This document shows, piece after piece, positions 18,777 to 25,795 of a stretch of 25,795 nt of DNA. The DNA is taken from the IMG/VR virus record IMGVR_UViG_3300021960_000449, positions 1 to 25,795 of that record. One strand, written 5' to 3'. The notes under the pieces were generated by a model. That model ran no database searches. It worked only from the letters and a program-made list of their open reading frames with translations, and had not been told where the DNA came from. This DNA is from a virus. A program made the position numbers and the translations under genes. Positions within the stretch are counted from its first letter, which is position 1. Every line of letters starts with the position of its first letter.

Positions 18777-20177
18777 TTATTCAATGTCTCCGAAACTATC
18801 TCTAATGATATCAATGCTTGACAGTGTTTGTTCTGAATTTATTTTGTGACAGACATTTGCAACAATATATCTTCCAGAAAGAGTTTGACTACCACTAGAA
18901 ACTTCAGTATTCAAATTTACAAATGTACAGTTTACAACGTCCCCAGCCCTAATACTAAAATCTCCGGGTATGATTATATTTATTTTAGTTCTGAATAGTT
19001 CGTTATATCTCATAATAGATTGAACCATTACCTCTGGAGACCTGGTGGTAGGCGATGGATCCTTTCTATCATCTATTAATTTACTATCTTTACTATCTTT
19101 ACTATCTTTACTATCATTAGGCAAAGTTCCAATATCAAGATAACTAAACATCAATCTTGAAGGTTTTTCTATAATTTCTTTTTGTGGATTATTTGTTTTC
19201 TCATTCAATAATTTTACTTTACCTTTTTTATTTTCCTCAAAACTAAAGTCCACTACTCTATAATTGAGTGAATATAAGTCAAAGAAAATCGTCTTACTAT
19301 TATACACACCTAATGATAAATCTTTTCCAATATCTGCCTGTTGTTGAGTAGTATAATCTAAAATGTTAATTTTCTTTCCACCAATACTACCCTTTGGTTC
19401 CTTACCTGTATTATTGTAAATAAAATCACGACCTGGTTTTACCAATTGTTTAGAAAGAGTGTCAACCGACTTGAAGTAATACTTATCTCTAGTTTGGAAG
19501 AAGAAAAACCCTGCAGTAGCACCCTGAAGAGTTCCTTTCGTTGGATCATCTGATGCAGTTTGTGAAGTTGCAGACTTAGATGCTAACCAGGTACAGGTGT
19601 AAAGTGGTTTCTTTGTATTACCAATAAAGTTATAATCATAACTACTCTGTTCAATATCAAAGACATCTGCTCCTAAACCTAAAATATTTTGAAGAATATC
19701 CTTAACATGGTTTCCTGGATTACCATTATATCTCTTAGTAACTCTTGTTTCTTCATTAGTCCAGTACTCTTTAGTAACTAAATCCAAAACAAACATCTTC
19801 TTTGTACCTTGAGTAGCAACATTTCTGATACTCTTGATGTACATTACGTCCGAATCACAGACTGCAGAGGTAAGTGTTCCTTCACTTTCAGAAGTTACAT
19901 CGTTATTATCAATAACTTCAAACTCAATTTCTTCACCACCAACCAATTCAAGATCATCAATAATACCACTGGTATTCAGTCTAGTATTACCTTCTTTTTC
20001 AAATCCAGTATCTATAAAGGCAACCGTAGCCGTCACAGTATTGGCTAGAATACTTTCATAATAATAAAATTCTGCAATAGAACCACTAAGATCGGTGGAC
20101 TTACCATTAGATCCTTTGATCTTAAAGAATTTTATATCTCCAGGTCTAATGGATTGTTTATATGGAGTATTTGCCAT
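18777..20177 (-). CDS. Baseplate hub protein, gp27-like, 466 aa
   Basis: A 466-aa protein directly before the gp5-like gene, the place expected for the partner that forms the hub ring under the OB-fold. The N-terminus (YKQSIRPGDIKFFKIKGSNG, then FYYYESILANTVTATVAFID) is beta-rich. A central section (KRYNGNPGNHVKDILQNILG) resembles the linker helix of gp27/VgrG-type hubs. The C-terminal section (IIIPGDFSIRAGDVVNCTFV, then SGRYIVANVCHKI) matches the barrel strands with an IPG-D...AGDVV pattern typical of hub proteins. T4 gp27 is 391 aa, so this version is somewhat longer. A DSK tandem repeat lies near residue 355. The hub role is a strong inference; the exact name gp27 is less certain. Confidence 0.75.
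   Translation of the reverse strand: MANTPYKQSIRPGDIKFFKIKGSNGKSTDLSGSIAEFYYYESILANTVTATVAFIDTGFEKEGNTRLNTSGIIDDLELVGGEEIEFEVIDNNDVTSESEGTLTSAVCDSDVMYIKSIRNVATQGTKKMFVLDLVTKEYWTNEETRVTKRYNGNPGNHVKDILQNILGLGADVFDIEQSSYDYNFIGNTKKPLYTCTWLASKSATSQTASDDPTKGTLQGATAGFFFFQTRDKYYFKSVDTLSKQLVKPGRDFIYNNTGKEPKGSIGGKKINILDYTTQQQADIGKDLSLGVYNSKTIFFDLYSLNYRVVDFSFEENKKGKVKLLNEKTNNPQKEIIEKPSRLMFSYLDIGTLPNDSKDSKDSKDSKLIDDRKDPSPTTRSPEVMVQSIMRYNELFRTKINIIIPGDFSIRAGDVVNCTFVNLNTEVSSGSQTLSGRYIVANVCHKINSEQTLSSIDIIRDSFGDIE
19080..19115. repeat. 9-bp tandem repeat, 4 copies (DSK repeat)
   Basis: Four perfect copies of TTTACTATC (plus strand), encoding four Asp-Ser-Lys units in the gp27-like protein. The repeat is in frame, so copy-number changes would preserve the reading frame while altering the length of a polar, likely exposed loop. 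Confidence 0.95.
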
Positions 20178-22057
20178 TATGCATTAGAAAAGGGTTGTCC
20201 TAGGATTATACTATCTATATCTATATCATAACCACCAGAACTACGAGAAACACCAGAAGAAGCACCAGGGCCACCACCAGGAAGTGGTATATGAACTGGT
20301 ACTGCTACTTCTAACAGTGCAACCTGTAGTCCTGTTTCTTCATAAGATGCAGTAGAACTAACTTCCTGTGCCTTGTCAGGTGGTTTTTTTGGTGTCATTT
20401 TGATGGGATGTTTCTTGGTCCAAGCACCTGGTTCTACTTCGGCACCTTCTGCACCAATTTCCCAGTGGAGATGATAAGAACCAGGAGTTCCAGTATCACC
20501 GGTTTTGGCTAACATGGTTCCAGCACTGAACTTTTCTCCAACCTTAAGAGGTCCTGGAGCCATTAGATGAGCAAACATATGTTTCTCACCATACACATCA
20601 TCCTGCCATTCTACAATATTCCCGTAACCAGAAGCAGGACTATTTCTAGTTATCCTTCCTGGTAGATACGCATATACTGGAGTTCCCTTAGTAGTGGGAA
20701 TATCATATCCTTTATGATTACTCTGAGTACTTGCCCTATATCCTTTACCAGATATAATTGACAATCCTTGTTCATCAATATCACTTTGTGCAAGTGGACT
20801 ATAAGCTGTACTCAAAGAAGCTTTTTCTTGACCATCATATGCAACAGAACCACTATGACCAGATAGACTCCCCAACTTGGTATCACCTCCCATTACTGGT
20901 GTTTGTGGTTTTGAAAAACCACGTAGATTTGTATCAGTTCCTTTTAAAATATCAAAATATTTTGATTCTATTTCTGCTCTTTTTTGTTCATCTTCGACTC
21001 CTTTCAATTCATTATCTCTTTGAGTTTTTATTTTTTCTATTTCCGCTCTTCTATTTTCATAGGCAGTATATGCATCTTTTTGTTCCTGTGTTCCACTCTT
21101 CATTACATCAAGATATTGTCGTCCACCAGATGAGGTACCTCCGGGACCTACAGCAGGTTTATAATCTGGATTTTTTATTCTCCCTTTTCGAGTTCCATCT
21201 TTTTCTATAAAAGTATCAACTCCTGTAGATCGAAGTTTTTCTTCAATAATTCTATGTTCTTCAAGAAAAGCTTCTCCTCCGGCCAAATTGGTTATTGTTT
21301 CCATCCCAACATGTTTTAGGTACAGTGCTAGTCCTCCTGCAGCTAAAACAGGTAATAAAATACCACCGAGAGCTAATATAATTGGACTAACGATTGAGAG
21401 AATAGTCCCTACCATACTAATAACAGGTAAAAATGAAGCTACAAATGCAATACCCAATATCCCAAGAGTTCCCAAAATAATTTTGTCAAGGTGTTCCGTC
21501 AAGAATCCAAAAATAGATTCTTGTTTCTCTGGATCAAGGAATTTCAACAACTCCATGATACCCAACGACAAGATAAGTCTGCCACCTATCTTGAAAATAT
21601 CCATAAAAAGGGAAGGCATCGTAAGTTTCATTGGTTTTGAAACTTTTGCTACAGTTTTCTTGGATTCTGTTTTTTCTTCATTTCTTTGACGTTTTGAGTT
21701 CTGTTTTATATTCTCTTTAGTTCTATTACCTTTCTTTACATCACCCAAATCTTTCTTGGTTATCTTCTGTAAGTTAGCGGTAGAGCCAACTAGAGACGTG
21801 AGAAGTGCATCAAATTTACTGACACTAAACTGTTCATTAACGTTTGAGTAAGGAAGAAACTTAGTCGTCTCAACTTTTTTTCTATAGGGTGCAAGTTTTC
21901 TAGGTTCAACCTTAGAGAATTGTGCTCTACTTTTTGCCGGAGAAGTAGTTGAGTTGGAAAGAAGTTTTTGTGCTGATACCTTATCATCTTTTTTTGCACT
22001 CTTACCCTTCTTTACCAATGCACTTGTAATCCCCTTTGCCAGTATTGGAAGTGCCAT
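20177..22057 (-). CDS. Virion protein with membrane segments and M23 endopeptidase domain, 626 aa
   Basis: The start has GGGGAGGG upstream, three nt after the 802-aa gene stop. Residues 1-145 are very basic and Ser/Lys-rich. Residues about 192-248 are strongly hydrophobic (IILGTLGILGIAFVASFL and SPIILALGGILLPVLAAGG), enough for two or three membrane passes. Residues about 330-370 look coiled-coil (RRAEIEKIKTQRDNELKG). The C-terminal region, about 435-545, is an M23/LytM metallopeptidase with the full motif set: His448-x3-Asp452 (HKGYD), His497 in MFAHL, and His529-Leu-His531. M23 enzymes cut the peptide cross-links of peptidoglycan using zinc. As part of the tail it would help penetrate the cyanobacterial cell wall. 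The membrane segments suggest it may be ejected and insert in the inner membrane. It shares an IMELLKFL segment with its upstream neighbour. Confidence 0.85.
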   Translation of the reverse strand: MALPILAKGITSALVKKGKSAKKDDKVSAQKLLSNSTTSPAKSRAQFSKVEPRKLAPYRKKVETTKFLPYSNVNEQFSVSKFDALLTSLVGSTANLQKITKKDLGDVKKGNRTKENIKQNSKRQRNEEKTESKKTVAKVSKPMKLTMPSLFMDIFKIGGRLILSLGIMELLKFLDPEKQESIFGFLTEHLDKIILGTLGILGIAFVASFLPVISMVGTILSIVSPIILALGGILLPVLAAGGLALYLKHVGMETITNLAGGEAFLEEHRIIEEKLRSTGVDTFIEKDGTRKGRIKNPDYKPAVGPGGTSSGGRQYLDVMKSGTQEQKDAYTAYENRRAEIEKIKTQRDNELKGVEDEQKRAEIESKYFDILKGTDTNLRGFSKPQTPVMGGDTKLGSLSGHSGSVAYDGQEKASLSTAYSPLAQSDIDEQGLSIISGKGYRASTQSNHKGYDIPTTKGTPVYAYLPGRITRNSPASGYGNIVEWQDDVYGEKHMFAHLMAPGPLKVGEKFSAGTMLAKTGDTGTPGSYHLHWEIGAEGAEVEPGAWTKKHPIKMTPKKPPDKAQEVSSTASYEETGLQVALLEVAVPVHIPLPGGGPGASSGVSRSSGGYDIDIDSIILGQPFSNA

Positions 22058-22060
22058 ATA

Positions 22061-24469
22061 TTATGCCCTCCCCACATGATAAGTTTGTTGTGTAGAAATT
22101 GCACTTAGATCTGCGACGTTGGTTGCAGAGAATGAATACGCTTGACTTTGTGGACGACCTGCAGCAGCATGAGCAACACCTGGAGCCTCACCACCAGTCA
22201 AACCTCCAATTGTAGTCAAAGAAGCTTTTTGAACTGGTGGGTTTATCGCATAAGGATTAGGACGGGTCAATTTTCCAGCATCTAAATCTTTAAGGAATTG
22301 GTCTGGATCTTTTTCCAACCTTCTATTTACATCTTCTAGGGGTACAGTTATTGGTAATGCTGAAGTTGGTGGGGGTGCCGATTCAGTAGTTTGGGCCGGC
22401 ATTTTTTCTCGTTGTTTTTTATATACTTCCTTTATTTGTTCTTTTGATTTACCCCCCTGACCATAATAACTGGTTCCTTGAATATCTCTTCCTTTATAAT
22501 CAGGACCAAAAAGATTAGGGAAAGATGCAAACACTGGTGCCAATTTGTCAATAGTCTGGTCCGACATTTCAGGAGCATTGATTTCTGCCTCTGTCACACC
22601 GGCCTCTTTCATTATGTAACCATATAAGAATAGTTTATCCTGGTTTTCTGGGGTAAATTTATCTACTGCCGGATTAAGACCTGCGGCTTTAGCATAAGTT
22701 TCTGGTTTTACCATCTGATATTTACCAACAGCATAACTGGCATCAGGTTTACCTGCACCATCTATAAATTGTGCTGATGGTTCTTTATTCCTCATACGTC
22801 TCTTCTGTTCTTCTACAACCTGATCAATCGTCAGTTTACTTAGATCCAAATCATTACGACCACCAAACCAGGTATTATAACCAGCACTACCAGATGTTCC
22901 TTCTGCAAAGGCAACAGTCTCTGCAAATGCCTTTTGTTGTGGGGTTAAACCATTTCCTGATTGAGAAGGTTGTTGCCCCATCAAAGTCTCTTGAGGTTGT
23001 GTTGTACCTGGTGCAGGAAGTTCTGGTGCGGGTGGTGCCTTATCAAATTTCATAAAATCATCATCTACCTCTGGAAGTCTTCCTAAGAATACTTTATCTC
23101 TGATAATGGATTCTTCAATTATTGGTATTTGTGGTGTTGGTAAATTAGGAATATTTCCCATGCCAGGAAGTTTTTTGAACTCTTCTATGAACGGATTAAG
23201 ACCATCCACAAACTCTTTTAGTTTTGTGTTAATACCTTTTATCATATCATTCGTAGGTTTGATAATCTGATCAACAACAAAATTTTCTATCTTCATTTCC
23301 AATTTGGCAATCTGTAGATTTATCCATTTGGTAATACCATTAATATATTTTGCAGGATCCTTGAGGAATTTCAACAATTCCATAATAAACATAGCAAATC
23401 CAAGTCTCTTGAAGAAATCAAATAAACCACCCATCATATCAGTTAATGGTTTAACAGTTTTCTTCACACCTGCGACTACACCACCCAGAACAGCCGCTCT
23501 CTCTATTCTCTCTTCCTTTCTTTGAGCAGCTGTATTTTCTGCAGTAAGTCTATCCTGGTTTTTCTGTGCGTTTTCCGCAGCATCTTTATTCTGAAGATTA
23601 CTAGTAGTTTGTTGAACATTCTTATCAACACTATTCAACTTACTTGCAATCAGTGCAAGAGTCTCATCCATCCCCTGTCTCTCAGGTTGAATAGGTTGTT
23701 CAGTTTCTTGTGGTGTTACTGATGGTAATAAAGGAGTTACACTAACAGCAGAAGAACTTGGTTTTGTTTTTGCTACAAAAGATTGTACATTAATTTTTTT
23801 AGAATTAACTTTAAACTTACCAGTACTACCCTTTATTCTCTTATATTCATCACTTATAAGTTCTGCATCACCGCTATCTCCCTCATTATCATTCATTCTA
23901 TCGGCGGCCATCTTCTCTTTGAGAAGAGATTTATAGTCACTATAGTCCAGGCCTGTGGTATCTTCAATACCAAGAAGTTCTAGTATTCTAGAATCAATAT
24001 CTTCATCTACAAGTTCTTCTTCTTTTTGAGGAACATTTCCAACAATAACCGCAAGAGCAGAAGACTTCTCTTTTACATTCTCTTTTAGTTTGGTTGATGA
24101 TTTTTTGACACTATCTACCTTACCTTGATACTCTGCAATGAGCTTATCAATCTCACTCAAGATACCATCAGAAGTCCCCTTCAACTCCCCATCAAGTCTT
24201 TCTTGAGTATCATCTATAAACTTATCTGCTGGTTCATATTTTTTTGTATCTTCACTATTCTCCTCAACAAAACTCTTTGCCATTTCATGGAGTTCTGAAT
24301 CATTATATCCCTTAAATATTTTATTATCAATCTCGCTCTGTTCTTCTTTACCTAAAGAATTATAAAATTTTGAAATAATATTAATCTGTTGGTCTGTCAA
24401 TTTGGCGACAAGATCCTTCCCTAACTTAGATTCGTAAGTTTTTCTTAGTTGTTGAGGATCTCTAGCCAT
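22061..24469 (-). CDS. Tape-measure/hub candidate with lysozyme-like domain, 802 aa
   Basis: This long helical protein directly follows the gp26 frameshift pair, the place normally held by the tape measure gene. The N-terminal 340 residues are charged and coiled-coil-like with Gln/Glu-rich linkers. Residues about 348-375 are hydrophobic (DFFKRLGFAMFIMELLKFLK). A Pro-rich linker near 478-505 leads to an enzyme domain at about 510-620: AFAETVAFAEGTSGSAGYN, then SYAVGKYQMVKPETYAKAAG and FTPENQDKLFLYGYI. The AxxEGT...GxYQ pattern matches lambda-endolysin-like (GH104-type) muramidases or lytic transglycosylases, with Glu523 the likely catalytic acid. The C-terminal 180 residues are Pro/Ser/Gln-rich. 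It would cleave peptidoglycan glycan strands during tail penetration. Tape-measure identity is inferred from length and position, and the hydrolase from the motif. Confidence 0.8.
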   Translation of the reverse strand: MARDPQQLRKTYESKLGKDLVAKLTDQQINIISKFYNSLGKEEQSEIDNKIFKGYNDSELHEMAKSFVEENSEDTKKYEPADKFIDDTQERLDGELKGTSDGILSEIDKLIAEYQGKVDSVKKSSTKLKENVKEKSSALAVIVGNVPQKEEELVDEDIDSRILELLGIEDTTGLDYSDYKSLLKEKMAADRMNDNEGDSGDAELISDEYKRIKGSTGKFKVNSKKINVQSFVAKTKPSSSAVSVTPLLPSVTPQETEQPIQPERQGMDETLALIASKLNSVDKNVQQTTSNLQNKDAAENAQKNQDRLTAENTAAQRKEERIERAAVLGGVVAGVKKTVKPLTDMMGGLFDFFKRLGFAMFIMELLKFLKDPAKYINGITKWINLQIAKLEMKIENFVVDQIIKPTNDMIKGINTKLKEFVDGLNPFIEEFKKLPGMGNIPNLPTPQIPIIEESIIRDKVFLGRLPEVDDDFMKFDKAPPAPELPAPGTTQPQETLMGQQPSQSGNGLTPQQKAFAETVAFAEGTSGSAGYNTWFGGRNDLDLSKLTIDQVVEEQKRRMRNKEPSAQFIDGAGKPDASYAVGKYQMVKPETYAKAAGLNPAVDKFTPENQDKLFLYGYIMKEAGVTEAEINAPEMSDQTIDKLAPVFASFPNLFGPDYKGRDIQGTSYYGQGGKSKEQIKEVYKKQREKMPAQTTESAPPPTSALPITVPLEDVNRRLEKDPDQFLKDLDAGKLTRPNPYAINPPVQKASLTTIGGLTGGEAPGVAHAAAGRPQSQAYSFSATNVADLSAISTQQTYHVGRA

Positions 24470-24641
24470 TTTGTTGTGCCTTTGCTTTTTCTTCTTCTTC
24501 CTCTAAGTGTTGCTGTAAGAGGGCTACGTAAATGTCTCTCTCCCACGGCATCATGTTTTCAATCTCCGTTAATGAATATTTATGATACTGCATCAGGGCA
24601 AAATTTAACCTGAAGTAGTTCTCAAGATCCATGTGGATCAT
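24462..24641 (-). CDS. Small tail-assembly-chaperone-like ORF, -1 frame extension of gp26, 59 aa
   Basis: This frame runs from ATG 24641 (MIHMDLENYFRLNFALMQYH) to TAG 24464-24462 and overlaps the start of the 802-aa gene. The middle (YSLTEIENMMPWERDIYVAL) and acidic end (LEEEEEKAKAQQ) resemble the downstream frame of tail assembly chaperone pairs, where a helix is followed by a (M/P)xxERDIY motif and a charged tail. It has no ribosome site of its own beyond AGGT next to the ATG. The codons before the ATG are open in the same frame up to the slippery site in gp26, so translation by -1 frameshifting would give a 300-aa gp26 fusion. It occupies the place of T4 gene 51 but is far shorter than T4 gp51. 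It may also be made alone from ATG 24641 or 24632. Confidence 0.7.
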   Translation of the reverse strand: MIHMDLENYFRLNFALMQYHKYSLTEIENMMPWERDIYVALLQQHLEEEEEKAKAQQNG

Positions 24642-24671
24642 ACCTATGCGAAAAAACTGGATAAGCCCTCC
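24626..24671 (-). promoter_or_regulatory. Candidate programmed -1 ribosomal frameshift signal
   Basis: In minus-strand order: an SD-like GGAGGG (24671-24666), nine nt, the heptamer TTTTTTC (24656-24650) in the required X-XXY-YYZ phase for gp26 codons AGT-TTT-TTC, ten nt, then a hairpin GATCC-ACAT-GGATC (24639-24626). A slip of -1 at the heptamer bypasses the TAG at 24646-24644 and enters the small ORF. An SD-like element about 10 nt upstream of the slippery site, plus a downstream hairpin, is the layout known to stimulate -1 frameshifting in bacterial dnaX. Confidence 0.7.
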
Positions 24672-25363
24672 AAGACGACAGTACTTTTTACATCAGTCTT
24701 AGGATTAGTAACCTCAACTTCATATGAAAGTTTAGGCATAGTCTCAAAGAACTTTTCAATCTGTTTGAATTGAACAGAATTCATTTGTTCCAAAAAGTCA
24801 ATAACTTCTTTTTTTGAACAATCTGCAGTTGACCAAACTTCTTCTTCACTAAAGATTTTATCGATACAACCTGCAATCAATTCAAATGATTTATTAACGT
24901 CAACCTCACCTTTAATGTCAAAATTATTTTTAATAAATTCATCTAGTGACGGATACTTCATTTCCATCATCAAACTATCATCAAGTTTAATTTTTTTATC
25001 GTGGCCTTCACCTTCCTTTACTTCAATTTCATCCAATAAGATAGTAATAGGAATTTCAGTCACACCATCGTCAGGAGCAAGAATATTTACTTCAACTTCT
25101 TCACCAACAGACTTACCTCTAATATTTAAGAAAAGAAATTCAATATCAAATGTAGGAAGTGATTCTACTTTAACACCTCTGGTTTCAATACAACTCTTTA
25201 GAACTGCTCTGATTGCATTAGTGATTTGTTTTGTGTCATCACTTTCAAGAGCAAGAACCAGAAGTTTTTCTTCTTTAACAAGAAATGGTCTATATTTAAT
25301 TTTCTTTTTAGTAGAGGGTAAAGTCAACTCATAAGTTGGAGTTGCAATTTTTGGTAAAGGCAT
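24644..25363 (-). CDS. gp26: Baseplate hub subunit gp26, 239 aa
   Basis: The N-terminus (MPLPKIATPTYELTLPSTKK, then KYRPFLVKEEKLL) is the signature of the T4-like gp26 family. The same is true of the following SLPTFDIEFLFLNIRGKSVG segment and the later YPSLDEFIKNNF. T4 gp26 is 208 aa and belongs to the baseplate hub assembly group; this one is 239 aa. The protein ends VVLEGLSSFFA at a TAG placed just after a TTTTTTC slippery sequence, so a fraction of ribosomes may extend it by 62 residues. It follows the tail-tube-type gene by 32 nt, with an ACTAAATA late-promoter-like octamer 30 nt upstream and no clear Shine-Dalgarno. If the frameshift is real, gp26 would correspond to the short (G-type) member of a tail assembly chaperone pair. 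Confidence 0.88.
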   Translation of the reverse strand: MPLPKIATPTYELTLPSTKKKIKYRPFLVKEEKLLVLALESDDTKQITNAIRAVLKSCIETRGVKVESLPTFDIEFLFLNIRGKSVGEEVEVNILAPDDGVTEIPITILLDEIEVKEGEGHDKKIKLDDSLMMEMKYPSLDEFIKNNFDIKGEVDVNKSFELIAGCIDKIFSEEEVWSTADCSKKEVIDFLEQMNSVQFKQIEKFFETMPKLSYEVEVTNPKTDVKSTVVLEGLSSFFA

Positions 25364-25392: not shown

Positions 25393-25400
25393 TATTTAGT
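25393..25400 (-). promoter_or_regulatory. Late-promoter-like octamer ACTAAATA
   Basis: Minus-strand ACTAAATA includes the TAA stop of the tail-tube-type gene and lies 30 nt before gp26. It shares the CTAAATA core with the octamers before the 417-aa and 129-aa genes. Confidence 0.45.
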
Positions 25401-25795
25401 TGGCGGTTCCAGGTGTTGTACTTCCATCATCACCCAAAGCTCTGGTAAGATTTGGGGTACTATTAAATGCAGCAAGAACTTCTGAAGTTACTCTACTAGC
25501 ATTATTCAATAATGAGTTTGAACTCTGTCTCCACTTTAGTTTTTCTCTAGTATATCTCAAGAATGTGAAGTTTACGGTATATTCCATAATTTGACTGGCA
25601 GAATATGAAAGAGGTGTGGAGTTAATTGATATAGGATATGCACCAACTAAGGTATAACTATTTGCAGTCCCATAACCTTCTTTTTCAAACTTACTAATAA
25701 ATACCTGTCCTCTATATGTGGCTGGATAATTCATTCTATAAGATGCGGTAACATTCTTATATGCACTGGTGTCTGTTTGATTAGAAATCCAGTCC
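25396..25795 (-). CDS. Tail tube/tube-initiator-type protein, C-terminal 132 aa (5' end outside window)
   Basis: The frame is open from the window edge to TAA 25398-25396; the ATG at 25734 is internal because codons before it (DWISNQTDTSAYKNVTASYR) continue the same protein. The visible part has MNYPATYRGQVFISKFEKEG, then SYTLVGAYPISINSTPLSYS and MEYTVNFTFLRYT. This is the strand pattern of the tail-tube fold shared by T4 gp19 and the baseplate tube initiators gp48 and gp54, where a YP/FP-x-S-I-x...L-x-Y segment is followed by a V-x-F-x-F/Y strand. The C-terminal 45 residues are helical, then Thr/Gly-rich. The place beside gp26 and the hub genes favours a gp48/gp54-type initiator over the main tube protein, but this cannot be settled from the fragment. 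Confidence 0.7.
   Translation of the reverse strand, partial: DWISNQTDTSAYKNVTASYRMNYPATYRGQVFISKFEKEGYGTANSYTLVGAYPISINSTPLSYSASQIMEYTVNFTFLRYTREKLKWRQSSNSLLNNASRVTSEVLAAFNSTPNLTRALGDDGSTTPGTAN

Follow-up and report, generated by a model that had tools for sequence, protein, structure and literature searches.

The window analysed here is a stretch of viral DNA of 25,795 nucleotides (nt; positions 1 to 25,795 of the IMG/VR record IMGVR_UViG_3300021960_000449), and the element in question is the junction between gp26 and the small open reading frame (ORF) that follows it, termed the extension. On the minus strand the gene order is tail tube, gp26, extension and putative tape measure (Table 1). 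The final codons of gp26 read GAG GGC TTA TCC AGT TTT TTC GCA TAG, which places a slippery heptamer in phase at the end of the gene, with a Shine-Dalgarno (SD)-like sequence before it and a hairpin after it. An initial annotation, made from the sequence alone, had described these three elements and their spacing; all are present in the window, with the correction that a single codon (GCA) and not two lies between the heptamer and the TAG. It had also described a stop-free -1 frame of 62 codons that ends at the start of the 802-amino-acid (aa) ORF, and this frame is confirmed: it is open for 64 codons from the heptamer, or 62 after the two Phe codons, and stops at a TAG (24464..24462), with its end overlapping the ORF from its ATG (24469) by 8 nt. 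The virtual fusion of gp26 and extension is 300 aa long. The signal, the frame relation, its conservation, the start codons missing in relatives and the homology to T4 gp51, all read from sequence, make it very probable that a programmed -1 frameshift at the end of gp26 yields a long tail assembly chaperone, and gp26 and the extension most likely represent the short and long forms that the initial annotation had proposed.

Table 1. Features of the gp26 junction and its neighbours in the window
Feature	Position	Strand	Remarks
gp26	24644..25363	-	239 aa; PF12322 / phrog_150; putative short tail assembly chaperone (TAC-N); N-terminal predicted fold similar to HK97 2ob9
-1 frame extension	24462..24656	-	phrog_634; annotated in relatives as gp51 'baseplate hub assembly catalyst'; putative C-terminal part of the long form (TAC-NC)
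Slippery heptamer T TTT TTC (X XXY YYZ phase)	24650..24656	-
SD-like GGAGGG	24666..24671	-	9 nt between GGAGGG and heptamer
Downstream hairpin GATCC-ACAT-GGATC (GATCCACATGGATC)	24626..24639	-	5 bp; starts 10 nt past the heptamer
802-aa ORF, probable tape measure protein	22061..24469	-	By position and relatives' annotation
Tail tube protein homologue, incomplete at window end	25396..25794	-	Directly upstream of gp26; phrog_45, E 6e-11

The junction was followed through a wide set of 342 loci with 301 unique junctions, which includes Kyanoviridae, pelagiphages and phages of Methylophilales, Caulobacter, Sinorhizobium, Ochrobactrum, Pseudomonas, Stenotrophomonas, Delftia, Vibrio and Aeromonas, and codon statistics were calculated on 116 clusters at 80% identity. 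The close IMG/VR loci carry TTTTTTC in the same phase and the ORF in the -1 frame in 80 of 80 cases. An in-phase T6 heptamer is found at 291 of the 301 unique gp26 junctions, and all 282 heptamer junctions with a complete extension have 58-69 open codons in the -1 frame, the extension itself being conserved as a protein in the alignment of relatives. The first Phe codon of the heptamer is TTT in every one of the 116 clusters (71% TTT elsewhere in gp26), and the preceding codon, for Ser, Asp or Asn, has T as its third base in all of them (60% among Ser codons elsewhere). In 6670 pairwise comparisons no synonymous change was seen at the first Phe codon, whereas most of the codons around it vary at 0.27-0.82. 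The alignment suggested in the initial annotation thus shows heptamer, frame relation and lack of an alternative start holding across Kyanoviridae and well beyond. The ten junctions without the heptamer are three of T4 type, five from Ackermannviridae, that of Vibrio phage D510 and one probable assembly error. The last of these, L327, was set aside as a heptamer-less junction: it and L326 are near-identical Stenotrophomonas phage records, and the T5 found in L327 in place of T6 breaks the end of gp26, probably through a homopolymer assembly error. L301 and L316 only seemed heptamer-less because of a longer 0-frame tail, and both have the heptamer.

The start codons available to the extension were examined between the heptamer and the conserved extension body. 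No ATG, GTG or TTG is found there in 39 unique loci and no ATG in 24 further unique loci (at least 63 in total), with examples in pelagiphage HTVC008M (FFLICLSHIDLETYY...) and cyanophage S-CAM1 (FFRIAVFHNSLEGYY...). The stretch that precedes the body, of the type FFRIALSH, is nevertheless conserved in them. Judging by these sequences, the start-less loci offer no ordinary ATG from which a separate small gene could be translated. Five loci (L084, L086, L088, L090 and L335) have the heptamer together with a TGATG or TAATG overlap, and both frameshifting and re-initiation are possible in them.

Upstream of the heptamer, the Glu of a conserved Leu-Glu-Gly is encoded by GAG in 74 of 91 clusters, against 30% GAG elsewhere in gp26 (p 3e-24), and this bias builds GAGGG approximately 10 nt before the heptamer. 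Five-base anti-SD matches occur in 60 of the 116 clusters, which is only a moderate excess over the synonymous expectation of 43 (maximum 61 in 500). The 40-60 nt downstream are more stably folded than expected from synonymous resampling (mean z -1.6 to -1.7, against -0.35 in a control region), the window's own value being z = -0.9 only. A downstream stem-loop is general, with a register that varies from clade to clade. Within the clade of the window, 39 of 58 sequences retain the 5-bp hairpin; at the second pair of this hairpin A-T occurs in 18, G-C in 19 and G-T in 17, and A-C is never seen. The exact hairpin of the window was rejected as a family-wide element because its five pairs are kept in just 16 of 116 clusters. 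The two flanking elements described in the initial annotation are thus seen across the family as an SD-like codon bias and a general stem-loop, the GATCC/GGATC hairpin itself being specific to the clade. The upstream SD-like sequence and the downstream stem-loop probably assist slippage.

The relationship to T4 provides a further line of evidence. T4 gp26 and gp51 are homologues of the window genes, with gp51 composed of a gp26-like domain and the extension; they are separate, divergent genes that give the short and long forms with no heptamer, whereas the window's type of phage would obtain both forms from one gene and a frameshift. Over 241 columns, T4-type gp51 can be aligned with a profile of virtual fusions in which the extension follows the FF of gp26 (hhalign probability 99.4%, E 1e-21). 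Profiles of gp26 can be aligned to T4 gp26 and also to the N-terminus of gp51, and the extension only to the C-terminus of T4 gp51 (E 9e-10); independently, T4 gp51 matches phrog_150 over columns 13-280 of 282. Whole records contain two PF12322 genes in T4, 44RR and EC-F2, which have no heptamer, and a single one in every heptamer phage tested as well as in D510 and the Ackermannviridae tested. With this end-to-end match of gp51 and the two PF12322 genes, the predicted product of the frameshift exists in T4 as an ordinary gene, and a single chain of gp26-like and small domains exists in the window phage only if frameshifting occurs. The T4 proteins gp26 and gp51 are listed as hub assembly chaperones, gp51 being absent from the particle (PMC3004832, a 2010 review). 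In the Enterobacter phage EC-F2 (L342:2001-3294) a short gp26-like gene comes directly after a long gp51-like one and overlaps it by 8 nt; T4 has the two in divergent order. This tandem order may be a trace of the duplication.

The gp26 gene product matches the PF12322 profile with an E value of 2e-70 (237 bits; cut-off 24.5), and the extension matches phrog_634 (baseplate hub assembly catalyst, gp51) with an E value of 1e-30. The first 232 columns of phrog_150 match gp26 and its C-terminal columns 231-281 match the extension, so this PHROG profile already covers the whole fusion. A comparison of the extension with tail chaperone profiles, as proposed initially, returned chance matches only among the Pfam chaperone families, and no solved homologues of gp26 or T4 gp51 were found by sequence. 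The structure of gp26 was predicted with AlphaFold2 from a 47-sequence alignment (pLDDT 86) and 611 chains were realigned to the model. Its best solved matches are the HK97 tail assembly chaperone 2ob9 (Z 7.8), 3fgx (Z 7.5) and YqbN 3klu (Z 7.2), with the next at 4.8; 3fgx and YqbN are phage chaperone relatives. A Foldseek search of the model against the PDB gave no significant match, with the HK97 chaperone at rank 4, and matches to viral models are mostly to other gp26-type proteins. The model supports a resemblance of gp26 to a tail assembly chaperone.

Under the proposed mechanism, most ribosomes would stop at the TAG and release gp26 as the short chaperone, TAC-N, and a minority would slip one base back at T TTT TTC, where the two Phe tRNAs can re-pair on TTT TTT, and translate 62 more codons to give the 300-aa TAC-NC. 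By analogy with lambda G/GT, the short form would coat the tape measure protein, the product of the next gene, while tail tube subunits would be recruited by the extension. The predicted tryptic peptide across the fusion junction is STVVLEGLSSFFR and the predicted C-terminal peptide of the short form is STVVLEGLSSFFA, alongside which IGMIHMDLENYFR is named.

Several points weigh against this reading. The fusion product is a predicted one, and we infer the occurrence and rate of slippage and the chaperone function. The chance of the invariant TTT and of the invariant T-ending codon is approximately 1e-17 and 1e-21 if the clusters are independent, and as they are related and not fully independent these P-values are overstated; the codon pattern at the heptamer is not in doubt despite this. 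The fold match of gp26 is limited to residues 1-90 with Z below 8. The same gene pair occurs without the heptamer in Ackermannviridae and Vibrio phage D510. Finally, an ATG lies 2-3 nt past the gp26 TAG in the window, and TAATG or TGATG overlaps are seen in Cr30, Vibrio K571, Stenotrophomonas and Delftia phages, so that some separate initiation of the extension is possible. These start codons would suit a separate gp51 translated by re-initiation or coupling after the gp26 stop, with no fusion, which is the usual database annotation: P-SSM2, S-PM2 and many others list a separate gp51, and named cyanophages either do so or leave the extension unannotated. Such a gene is improbable as the whole explanation, given the start-less loci described above, a window in which no SD sequence lies at a proper distance (in agreement with the initial annotation, which had found no good ribosome site for the small ORF), an invariant heptamer phase and codon choice that it leaves unexplained, and a T4 product that is one fused chain. 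Transcriptional slippage on the T run, in which messenger RNAs with one base more or less would encode the fusion with no ribosomal frameshifting, is more improbable still: every site does have a T homopolymer, which reaches T8 in ten clusters, but the run is exactly six in 100 of 116 clusters, T6 is shorter than usual for efficient polymerase slippage, and both the stem-loop and the biased codon of the SD-like element suggest a ribosomal event.

Relatives without the heptamer had been named in the initial annotation as one case that would speak against frameshifting, and they exist among T4-type phages, Ackermannviridae and D510, beside the large majority that keep it. In Ackermannviridae the extension is in the -1 relation to the gp26 gene with no XXXYYYZ heptamer, and the junction segment is ATTTTCATTTAATTTTTG. 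With one PF12322 gene and no heptamer, these phages must obtain the long form by a different route, perhaps slippage of the P-site Phe from TTC to TTT. The Agtrevirus-type junctions read ATTTTCATCTAATG or ATTTTCATTTAATG and have TAATG at the same junction (L339:2795-2960, L340, L346-L348), and their extension could start by this stop-start overlap. A further 15 IMG/VR loci (L349-L363) and Klebsiella phage T751 (L337:2770-2830) carry ATTTTCATTTAATTTTTGAAATTG unchanged, with no ATG, GTG or TTG before the extension body, and this sequence is a possible non-canonical -1 site. The junction of Vibrio phage D510 (L089:3060-3260) reads TCA CTT TTC AAG TAA TGG, where the stop overlaps the start of an incompletely annotated -1 ORF. 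Single-protein scans with Vibrio K571 and D510 found no relatives. It is tentatively suggested that the junction acts as a three-part recoding cassette, composed of a selected SD-like element, the T6 heptamer and a stem-loop in a clade-specific register, which would tune the ratio of short to long form, and that this gene pair has also existed in at least three other states: as two separate genes (T4), with a stop-start overlap (Vibrio D510 and some Ackermannviridae) and with a conserved non-canonical shift site, ATTTTCATTTAA, but no start codon (other Ackermannviridae).

The arrangement resembles that of lambda gpG/gpGT, P2 E/E' and HK97 gp13/14, in which a -1 frameshift also lies near the end of the short chaperone gene, between the tail tube and tape measure genes, and the HK97 chaperone is the one with a fold likeness to the gp26 N-terminus. 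The window differs from these in its T6 slippery sequence, in a larger gp26 with further domains past residue 90, and in an extension with no sequence match to Pfam chaperone families. The E. coli dnaX frameshift site consists of an upstream SD-like sequence, a slippery heptamer and a downstream stem-loop; the window shares this three-part layout with a different heptamer and gene, and the likeness is one of resemblance only. Frameshifting has reportedly been kept in several T4-like groups, with the T4 group using separate genes. The initial annotation knew of no description for T4-like phages. One exists: these genes were identified in T4-like phages by Vladimirov, Gautam and Davidson (Virology 2022, doi 10.1016/j.virol.2021.11.003), a work that is cited in PMC10885494 for the solution of one short and one long fused gene and in PMC12846349 for poly-T slippery signals in T4-like TAC-N genes. 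As far as those citations convey, the genes and the idea are the same as for the window, and the core claim was thus already published in outline in 2022 and is ordinary in kind. In other phage families than that of the window, Vandenendeviridae and Andersonviridae, the tail chaperone -1 frameshift occurs at GTTTTT upstream of the tape measure gene (PMC12846349). What the present analysis adds to the 2022 work is breadth, the evidence on stimulators and the exceptions, and the selected SD-like and stem-loop context and the Ackermannviridae without heptamer are possibly new. Hundreds of cyanophage records give gp26 and gp51 as separate baseplate genes, an annotation error that can be corrected here to what is most probably one gene with two chaperone forms. 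T4 has long been listed as an exception, and a 2016 recoding review places it outside the lambda G-GT scheme (PMC5009743); the junction ties T4-like phages to the general scheme of tail assembly and shows how gene duplication or other solutions can take the place of a recoding device.

The 802-aa ORF was proposed in the initial annotation to encode the tape measure protein. Its positional counterparts in HTVC008M, Cr30 and phiM12 carry this annotation, and searches of Pfam, PHROGs and NCBIfam gave weak matches only and no strong family match. It is thus position and the annotation of relatives, rather than similarity to a known family, that make the assignment probable. A C-terminal stretch of this protein is similar to phrog_18972. 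In the 626-aa protein encoded by the ORF that follows it (20177-22057), an M23 peptidase domain occurs together with a similar hydrophobic helical segment.

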